Shown here piece after piece: positions 1,968 to 35,607 of a stretch of DNA of 35,607 nt; within the stretch, counting starts at the first letter, position 1, and each line of letters starts with the position of its first letter. Source of the stretch: Deltaproteobacteria bacterium (GTDB taxonomy: Bacteria; Desulfobacterota; Binatia; UBA12015); NCBI GenBank assembly GCA_009885395.1, contig VFKT01000347.1, positions 1 through 35,607 on the forward strand, written 5' to 3'. The notes beneath the pieces are model-generated. The model was not told the DNA's origin and did not search any database. It saw only the letters and a list, made by a program, of their open reading frames with translations. The position numbers and the translations under genes are program-made.

Positions 1968-2418
1968 CGGCGGGAACCCTAGCCGACGCCCCCGGCGACC
2001 TCGACCCAGACCCGTTCGACCGGGAAGGGCAGGAGACCGAGGCCCCAACTGGCGGTGGGTGAGCGTCGGTGCCGGCCGACCCTTCTGCGTGGGTGCGAAC
2101 TCGTCCCCCGGGGCCGTGCTGGTACCGCGGAAGCCTCGGCGACGGTCGACCTGCGTCGCAACCGCATCACGGAGCGGCGAAGACTTAACGCAGGCCGCAT
2201 CCCGAGTGCTGGCGCGCCTGCGAAAACAGGCTGTTTTCCCGGGCCTTTGCGCTGGCACCGTCTTTGCTGCTGCGGTCTATCGGGTCGTTCGCGACTCGGA
2301 CTGTCGCAGAAGGCGGCGGTCGAAATGAGGTTGGCCCCGGACGGGTTTCCGTCCGTGCGTCCTGCGGCGCGATTGGGCTTGGGTGGTGGGCAGACGCACG
2401 GACCGGAGGAAAAACGTG

Positions 2419-32503: not shown

Positions 32504-32916
32504 TCAGCGGGGTCCCGATCCCAGGAGGCGAAAGCCCATGGCTCGCGCAGCCTGTGCCAGCTCGGCGTCGTGCGTGGCGAAAAGAAGTTCGTCATAGTGT
32601 ACTTTGATGAGGATAGCCGTAGCAACATGAATTGCATCGAGTGAGGCGAGCTTTGTCGGGCAGGGGTCGGCTGCGTGCGTCAGGACGACGTCGTCTGTAT
32701 GCGCCAGCTCAAATGATTTCAGGTACATCAGGACGCTTTCGCGCTGCCTGGCTAAGGCATCGTCGCTCTAACCGAGCCGCAGACGTGCCCGACCGATCGT
32801 CCGAAGGCATTGGTCTCACTCGCGAATGGACGCTCGATACGGTTCCATTCGCGCAAGCGGCCTGGATCGCCAAAGATGATCCAGAGCAGGACCGACGAAT
32901 CGACATAGACGGTCAC
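32504..32916 (-). pseudogene. PIN-domain toxin (vapC-like), disrupted
   Basis: VTVYVDSSVLLWIIFGDPGRLREWNRIERPFASE, then a frameshift (about 32808-32814), CLRTIGRARLRLG, in-frame TAG (32770-32768), SDDALARQRESVLMYLKSFELAHTDDVVLTHAADPCPTKLASLDAIHVATAILIKVHYDELLFATHDAELAQAARAMGF. Confidence 0.85.
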
Positions 32917-33170
32917 TGTCGGCCGCGTTCCTCGAGCAGGAGGTCGAGCGAGGAAATCTTCCAGTTCGCTGGTCTTGGTGGGTGTTCGCGGATCGTCACG
33001 AAGTCGAGCTTTGGCTTGATGCTTCGGAGCGGCTTGCGGATCGAACCTGCGGGGACGATCCGTGCGATGGGGCGATCGCGGTCCAAGACCTCGATTTCGG
33101 CCCCGCGTTCGACGGCGCGCAGATGTTTGGAAAGATGGTCGTTGAGTTCCGCAATCCTGACGCTCTTCAT
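32913..33170 (-). CDS. Type II antitoxin, Phd/YefM (VapB-like)
   Basis: MKSVRIAELNDHLSKHLRAVERGAEIEVLDRDRPIARIVPAG; GTGA overlap with the broken toxin. Confidence 0.9.
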   Translation of the reverse strand: MKSVRIAELNDHLSKHLRAVERGAEIEVLDRDRPIARIVPAGSIRKPLRSIKPKLDFVTIREHPPRPANWKISSLDLLLEERGRQ

Positions 33171-33260: not shown

Positions 33261-34400
33261 ATGCCGGATGAAGCCATTGCGCGGGCACCGGGCCGGGTGA
33301 ATCTGATCGGCGAACACACCGACTACAACGGTGGCCTGGTGTTGCCGATGGCGATCGACCTGGTCACGGAGGTGCGCTTGCGACGCCGCGGCGACCGGCG
33401 TCTGGTGCTGCGCTCGACCGCGAAAACGCAGACGATCGAGACGGCGCTCGACGATACGATGCCGCAAGGCGGGGGCGCATGGGGCGATTATGTGCGCGCA
33501 GTGGCGCTGGCTCTGATCCGGCAGGGGATCGAGGTCCCCGGAGCCGACGTATGGATCGAGAGCCAGGTTCCTGAAGGTGCGGGCCTTTCGTCGTCTGCCG
33601 CTCTCGAAGTTGCGACCGCGATGGCCTTTCTCGATCTCGTCGAGGTCGAGCTTGAGCCGCGCAGCATCGCGCGTCTTTGCCAGCAGGCCGAGAACGATTT
33701 CGTCGGCACGCGCTGCGGCATCATGGATCCGCTCGTAAGCGTTCTCGCCGAGTCCGGTCGGGCAATGTGGCTCGATTGCGCGACGCTTGAGAGTCGCGCC
33801 GTGGCGTTGCCGCCCGACATTGCCGTGCTGGTCGCCGATACCGGCGTGCGTCATGCGCTGGCTTCGGGCGAGTACAACCGTCGTCGTGCCGAATGCGAAG
33901 CGGCATTACTCGTAGCGCGCCGGTTGTCGCCGGAGATCAATTTTCTTGCCGAACTGAAAGAGTCGGATCTCGAACGACTTGGCAGATATCTCGAGGTGCT
34001 GCCGCTCGCCCGGGCGCGCCATGTGGTGCGGGAGTGCGCCCGGGTCGAGGCCGTGGTCGCGGCGCTGGAGAGTGGACAACCGCAAGAAGCAGGTCGCCGC
34101 ATGGTCGAATCGCACGCTAGTCTGCGCGACGACTACGCCGTCAGCTGTCCCGAACTGGACCTGCTGGTCGAACTCGCCCTGGCCCAGTCGGGCGTGTTCG
34201 GCAGCCGCATGACCGGCGGCGGTTTCGGTGGTTGCACCGTGAGCCTGGTGGAGCAAGGCCGGGCTGCCGACGTTCGCGCTGCGATGGACGAGGCATGGCG
34301 AAGGGCGAGGGGGCAGCCTCTGCGGAGCTGGGAGTTCCGCCCGGGACCGGGTGCCTTCGCGTTGCGCCGGGCTTCGACCAACGCCGGGTCCGCCCGCTAG
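33261..34400 (+). CDS. galK: Galactokinase
   Basis: RAPGRVNLIGEHTDYNGGLVLPMAI signature, PEGAGLSSSAALEVATA, MTGGGFGGCTVSLV GHMP-kinase motifs. Confidence 0.95.
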   Translation: MPDEAIARAPGRVNLIGEHTDYNGGLVLPMAIDLVTEVRLRRRGDRRLVLRSTAKTQTIETALDDTMPQGGGAWGDYVRAVALALIRQGIEVPGADVWIESQVPEGAGLSSSAALEVATAMAFLDLVEVELEPRSIARLCQQAENDFVGTRCGIMDPLVSVLAESGRAMWLDCATLESRAVALPPDIAVLVADTGVRHALASGEYNRRRAECEAALLVARRLSPEINFLAELKESDLERLGRYLEVLPLARARHVVRECARVEAVVAALESGQPQEAGRRMVESHASLRDDYAVSCPELDLLVELALAQSGVFGSRMTGGGFGGCTVSLVEQGRAADVRAAMDEAWRRARGQPLRSWEFRPGPGAFALRRASTNAGSAR

Positions 34401-34673
34401 CCCGTAACTCGCGAGGCCCGCTGAACCTTGCGAGTTCCAACGCCGTATCAGGTTGCTGGCGCGCTCTCTCCAGCGGAAAGCCCGTGAGAGCACGGCCCCG
34501 GCCCTCCCTCTGGTCGCAAAAATTGGACAGTAGGCCGTGCGAAATTGGCAGTCAGCGGCAAGAAGTTGCCAGCACTGCATCGAGCACGAGCCCTTTCGGC
34601 CCAAAAAGCCTTGAAACACAAGCCTCGGCGAGCGGGTCCGCGTGGCATCGCATTTGCGGAGTCAGGTCTTACC

Positions 34674-34713
34674 GACCTTTTGCCCGCTGCCCTCCTGCAG
34701 CGGACGAAAGGTC
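34674..34713 (+). promoter_or_regulatory. Leader hairpin with CCUCCU loop upstream of the 40-aa ORF
   Basis: GACCTTTTG-c-CCGCTGC [CCTCCT] GCAGCGG-a-CGAAAGGTC; long stem with one mismatch and one G.U; 8 nt before the SD. Confidence 0.55.
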
Positions 34714-34731
34714 CGGGTGAAGGAGAGAATC

Positions 34732-34854
34732 ATGCGCCGTGTCCGTCGAAACATCGTCCGATTCAATCGTCGTTGGCTGCCGTTCGGCGGGATGGATGCG
34801 GCTCGTGCGGCCCTGCTCGGGGCTGCCCTGGTGGCGGGAATGATCGCCGCCTAG
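34732..34854 (+). CDS. 40-aa small cationic/hydrophobic protein
   Basis: MRRVRRNIVRFNRRWLPFGGMDAARAALLGAALVAGMIAA; SD AAGGAG with 6-nt spacing; followed by an intrinsic terminator. Confidence 0.6.
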   Translation: MRRVRRNIVRFNRRWLPFGGMDAARAALLGAALVAGMIAA

Positions 34855-34885
34855 GGAATTCTTTCCGATTCTTCGACTCACGAAG

Positions 34886-34924
34886 GGCCGCTTCTGGAAT
34901 GGGGACCAGAGGCGGCCTTTCGTA
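34886..34924 (+). terminator. Intrinsic terminator
   Basis: GGCCGCTTCTGG-AATGGGGA-CCAGAGGCGGCC then TTTCGTATTT; 12-bp stem with one G.U. Confidence 0.75.

Positions 34925-34948: not shown

Positions 34949-35607
<659 letters not shown>

Follow-up and report, generated by a model that had tools for sequence, protein, structure and literature searches.

A small gene downstream of galK in deltaproteobacterial genomes, with a predicted sigma-54 promoter and a probably membrane-bound product of 40 residues

Annotation often misses very short genes. SgrT, MgtR, KdpF, and CydX are small (<50 aa) single-helix membrane proteins that typically modulate a larger membrane protein, and none of them is known to be sigma-54 driven next to galK. 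PspG, another small membrane protein, comprises ~80 aa. In E. coli, it is an orphan target of PspF (PMC9239133). The trans-acting alpha-r14/cuckoo small RNAs contain three hairpins, each with CCUCCUCCC (PMC10746234).

The locus described here was found in the window, i.e., the whole 35,607-nt stretch of DNA that was analysed. Like pspG, it is a stand-alone gene for a small, probably membrane-bound protein and appears to be served by sigma-54 and an enhancer-binding protein, the activator being a candidate here; unlike PspG, its product has 40 aa and no Pfam match, and the two are not known to be related in sequence. With SgrT, MgtR, KdpF, and CydX it shares its length and a predicted single hydrophobic helix, but it matches no family by sequence. 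As in the alpha-r14/cuckoo RNAs, its leader bears an anti-Shine-Dalgarno sequence in an apical loop, although here a single CCUCCU loop is present, it is confined to one genome, and it precedes an ORF. Comparative evidence indicates a complete unit consisting of a candidate activator site, a predicted sigma-54 promoter, a leader, the ORF, and a terminator-like hairpin (Table 1). We consider it likely that the locus is a monocistronic RpoN-dependent gene which gives an RNA of ~250 nt and encodes an inducible membrane effector or modulator of 40 residues.

Table 1. Features of the small-gene locus, in window coordinates
Feature	Position	Strand	Remarks
galK	33261-34400	+	Pfam; synteny; conserved 5' of the small gene (11/11 genomes)
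Dyad GGCAAGAAGTTGCC, proposed enhancer-binding protein site	34557-34570		86 nt 5' of the sigma-54 box
Predicted sigma-54 promoter, -24 TGGCAT / -12 TTGC (TGGCAT-N5-TTGC)	34643-34657	+	canonical spacing; 11/11 homologs
Predicted transcription start	34669	+	~11-12 nt past the GC of the -12 element; from sigma-54 promoter geometry
Leader hairpin, 16 bp + one mismatch (9 bp, one C.A mismatch, 7 bp)	34674-34713	+	lineage-specific; begins 5 nt from the predicted RNA 5' end
Apical loop CCUCCU (CCTCCT)	34691-34696	+	not conserved
Shine-Dalgarno (SD) AAGGAG	34720-34725	+	6-nt spacer; SD-like sequence in all homologs
40-aa small protein gene, ATG...TAG	34732-34854	+	homologs, dN/dS, AlphaFold2 model (mean pLDDT 75)
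3'UTR stretch ATTCTTTCC	34860-34868	+	9 bp (incl. G-U) complement of the SD region 34722-34730
18-bp terminator-like hairpin	34881-34922		separates the small gene from convergent acnA; lacks a U-tract

The small gene, its neighbourhood and its product

A first-pass annotation of the window had described the ORF, with its strong and well-spaced SD, as a self-contained small-protein unit. Comparison with relatives supports this description: judged from its sequence conservation, the ORF is a genuine gene. Full-length homologs of 39-40 aa were detected by profile search in 11 of the 15 genomes of the family (the window's own counted; E 1e-10 or better), and a search among relatives returned ungapped full-length matches in nine family genomes, at 45-50% identity. 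The homologs are 40 aa long (39 in G010), with the consensus MKRxxREQKRFIRRWxRxxGSxxxRAALLGxAFLxGM(I/V)AA. For the closer homolog pairs, dN/dS is ~0.1-0.3 (dN ~0.08-0.25 vs dS ~0.4-1.6) and codon position 3 holds most of the differences, which supports purifying selection and conservation as a protein. Beyond the family, whose members are deltaproteobacterial MAGs according to their named records, profile searches of the wider class and phylum gave weak partial matches only. Neither the protein nor the RNA of the window has a match in Pfam, NCBIfam, or Rfam, a match of the protein to the Psp families in Pfam/NCBIfam was sought and not found, and a PDB profile search with it gave no meaningful match. 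The gene represents a small-protein family that is new, narrow in its distribution, predicted to be controlled by sigma-54, and absent from Pfam and NCBIfam.

The small gene is present as a single copy at a fixed chromosomal locus, and in all 11 gene-bearing genomes galK lies 5' of the small gene on the same strand. The gene on the 3' side varies, e.g., acnA in the window, and cytochrome oxidase-like, superoxide dismutase-like, or other genes elsewhere (names read from sequence). The acnA gene of the window, a name that was given in the first-pass annotation and fits the sequence, lies on the minus strand with its end at 34949, convergent with the small gene. In genus g2 the small gene is cleanly absent from all three genomes: at the empty site of G002 (L064) convergent acnA comes directly after galK, and another ORF takes this place in G007 and G011. 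In G014 (L044), tandem copies of a ~30-nt G+C-rich repeat (ggggtgacggtcggggtcgaaggccgcggc) lie downstream of galK and 5' of the small-gene promoter. Elsewhere in the window, at 32504-32916 (-) and 32913-33170 (-), an antitoxin-like ORF (MKSVRIAELNDHLSKHLRAVERGAEIEV...) is followed by a pair of short ORFs whose frames differ and which, by eye only, resemble a single interrupted PIN-domain toxin gene.

AlphaFold2, given ten homologs as input, predicted helices at residues 2-15 and 20-39 (mean pLDDT 75, pTM 0.33), the former cationic and amphipathic and the latter hydrophobic. Across the homologs, the net charge is +5 to +9 for residues 1-18 and the Kyte-Doolittle mean is 2.0-2.5 for the final 15 residues. 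The Arg-rich N-terminus and hydrophobic C-terminus noticed earlier in the window peptide are supported. The best 19-mer scores 1.25-2.12 across homologs and 1.55 in the window copy, which is borderline for a transmembrane helix. The protein is probably membrane-bound and probably acts as an effector or modulator in the envelope; orphan sigma-54 small membrane proteins, e.g., PspG, are comparable. Residues A32, G36, A39, and A40 are invariant in the family; A32, G36, and A40, spaced four residues apart, would form a face of small residues, as is typical where helices pack together, and the invariant Ala-Ala C-terminus appears to resemble a protease C-degron.

Promoter, upstream dyad and 3' hairpin

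The first-pass annotation saw the ORF, the SD, and the hairpins of the unit but missed its sigma-54 promoter and the dyad further upstream. The element TGGY-N7-TTGC is located 80-92 nt 5' of the ATG in 11/11 copies (10 distinct), and TGG and TTGC are the only fully invariant columns around the boxes. The background frequency of this pattern in these loci is 6.1e-5 per position, so that ~0.0008 occurrences are expected per copy in the 13-position window. The element agrees with the Desulfovibrio sigma-54 consensus tGGcacg/tTGCt (PMC4641369). RpoN is encoded in 15/15 genomes of the family, together with 6-40 activators each.

A dyad, GKCAR-N4-YTGMC, is present at -77 to -99 from the sigma-54 box in 8 of the 10 distinct copies; G004 has a near-match (9/10 positions) and in G003 the dyad is missing. 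Outside the promoters, these loci comprise a further 162,829 bases, in which the pattern has no match. The dyad consensus was derived from these promoters themselves, but the copy of G005/G009, left out of the derivation, fits it perfectly. From this conservation, the dyad is proposed to be an enhancer-type activator site, and its position agrees with the ~100-150 nt 5' of the start that is usual for such sites. Because the sigma-54 element is found in 11/11 copies and the upstream dyad in 8/10, the locus is read as a stand-alone, activator-dependent unit of ~250 nt. A sigma-54 promoter implies tight, signal-dependent expression, which makes the inducing signal and the membrane target directly testable. 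Apart from this locus, the window contains a near-consensus sigma-54 promoter-like site at 2253-2267 (+), TGGCACCGTCTTTGC; such pattern matches number six in the window vs 2.5 expected.

At the 3' end, an intrinsic terminator had been placed ~30 nt after the stop codon. A strong 18-bp hairpin (-34.8 kcal/mol) does start 26 nt past the stop, but it lacks the U-run that follows the G+C stem of an intrinsic terminator (tail CGTATTTCAG), and a consensus terminator scan made no call. Because acnA is convergent, the hairpin may serve both the small-gene and the acnA sides.

Leader hairpin and alternative readings

The leader hairpin with its apical CCTCCT loop is present as the first-pass annotation described it, 6 nt before AAGGAG rather than 8 nt. 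It is more stable than shuffled sequences (z -3.3 for 34664-34740, z -5.0 when the leader is taken to begin at the predicted start), as is clearly the case for the leader of G012 (z -3.6), whereas the other homolog leaders range between z -1.1 and +0.3. The CCUCCU loop with its long stem occurs in the window genome only; other leaders have different hairpins or none, and those of other genera are unrelated in sequence. There is no same-genus copy for comparison of the hairpin (in G001, 70% complete, a distant paralog is all that matches galK). Comparison with relatives, as had been suggested, shows the ORF to be conserved and the hairpin not.

It had been proposed that the loop and the SD form a pseudoknot that represses translation until it is released. 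The perfect 5-bp complementarity of CUCCU and AGGAG is indeed present and the hairpin is stable, and G013 has a small apical hairpin with CCTCCG, complementary to its own SD CGGAGG. A conserved switch of this kind does not fit the restriction of the loop and long stem to the window, most homolog leaders folding no better than shuffles. Its geometry also appears strained, as the 17-layer stem would rise ~48 A in A-form and the linker of 7 nt would reach ~42 A when stretched, and the loop-SD pairing of -5 to -7 kcal/mol is weaker than SD:anti-SD pairing (-9.1), while the window SD pairs better with its own 3'UTR (9 bp incl. G-U) than with the loop; we regard the pseudoknot as very unlikely. A dual-function small RNA whose loop binds the SDs of other mRNAs, like the alpha-r14/cuckoo RNAs, would suit a short, predicted stand-alone transcript with an anti-SD loop, and sigma-54 regulons can hold small RNAs, e.g., four in D. 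vulgaris (PMC4641369). Here it is the protein that is conserved and not the loop, anti-SD loops are not repeated, and in place of CCUCCUCCC in conserved hairpin loops there is a single, non-conserved CCUCCU in an RNA with no Rfam match, which leaves this reading only a slight chance. In the window, the leader fold starts at the predicted first nucleotide, which would fit protection of the 5' end better than a conserved switch.

The peptide had also been called toxin-like. This may hold, but specific pointers to a toxin are lacking (it is single-copy, at a fixed locus, and by prediction sigma-54 dependent, and no partner was found). If the gene encoded the membrane-active toxin in a type I toxin-antitoxin pair, with pairing between the 5' and 3' parts of the mRNA, this would account for a short peptide both cationic and hydrophobic and for the SD:3'UTR complementarity, which extends over 9 bp in the window and 11 bp in G012. 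Such pairing is not general among the homologs, the gene has a single copy at a fixed chromosomal place, and a conserved antisense unit was not identified; a check for an antisense antitoxin found a sigma-70-like promoter on neither strand, in a scan of low sensitivity. Control by sigma-54 and an activator is moreover atypical of known type I pairs, and we judge this reading quite improbable. Lastly, the dyad itself might be a relic of galK termination or the operator of another regulator, given that it sits in the spacer downstream of galK and that a regulon with dyad and sigma-54 box is not evident elsewhere: in a search of 15 genomes with the strict dyad, the small-gene locus was the sole repeated match. 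Against this, the distance from dyad to box is constrained (77-99 nt) while that to galK varies, the dyad of G005 falls inside the galK end, and no U-tract follows the dyad; an origin of this kind seems unlikely.

Proposed mechanism and candidate activators

In the preferred reading of an RpoN-dependent gene for a membrane effector or modulator, a dimeric enhancer-binding protein would bind the dyad and remodel RNA polymerase-sigma-54 at the promoter. The resulting RNA of ~250 nt would start near 34669 and end at the 3' hairpin, with the 5'-terminal hairpin most simply acting as a stabilising leader, and the small protein would be translated from 34732. The C-terminal helix (20-39) most likely inserts in the cytoplasmic membrane, and the Arg-rich amphipathic helix would lie along its inner face. 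The invariant A32/G36/A40 face would then mediate self-association or binding of a membrane partner. In its likely role, the protein would be induced to act on the cell envelope or on a membrane complex, as an effector or modulator.

Candidates for the activator were compared across seven genomes. Four of the six activators of G000 have reciprocal orthologs in g2, the genus without the small gene; the L147 clade has none. The product of G000 C254:5232-6752 is an NtrC-type response regulator with REC, AAA, and Fis domains; a histidine kinase comes before it, and relatives of the regulator (E below 1e-130) occur in 11/11 gene-bearing genomes vs 0/3 of g2. This co-occurring L147 clade comprises subclades A (69-76% identity) and B (55-60%), neither of which alone covers 11/11. 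In the B operons, a sigma-54 box precedes the kinase gene; the regulator of G014 has a gene for a PspA/IM30 protein after it (G012 B is similar by eye). The dyad is not evident at the own operons of subclades A and B, and a dyad-like site at -98/-99 in the B operons is not significant. The clade is a lead only to the activator of the small gene, which may alternatively be among the activators shared with g2. Tentatively, and with considerable doubt, the locus could represent a new 40-residue envelope family, each member with a dedicated enhancer-binding protein site used at one locus. It would then be the only target of a two-component system of the NtrC type, a relative of the system that these bacteria encode together with pspA downstream of a sigma-54 promoter, and would form a Psp-like branch of the membrane stress response.

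As a separate observation, a sigma-54 box followed by an operon of a histidine kinase and an NtrC-type regulator is found in relatives, at L260, L261, L262, L264, L265, and L266. The histidine kinase of the G014 operon has a 2TM domain. At L260, and apparently at L265, a PspA/IM30 gene comes after the kinase/regulator operon, an arrangement that is two-component-controlled and phage-shock-like.
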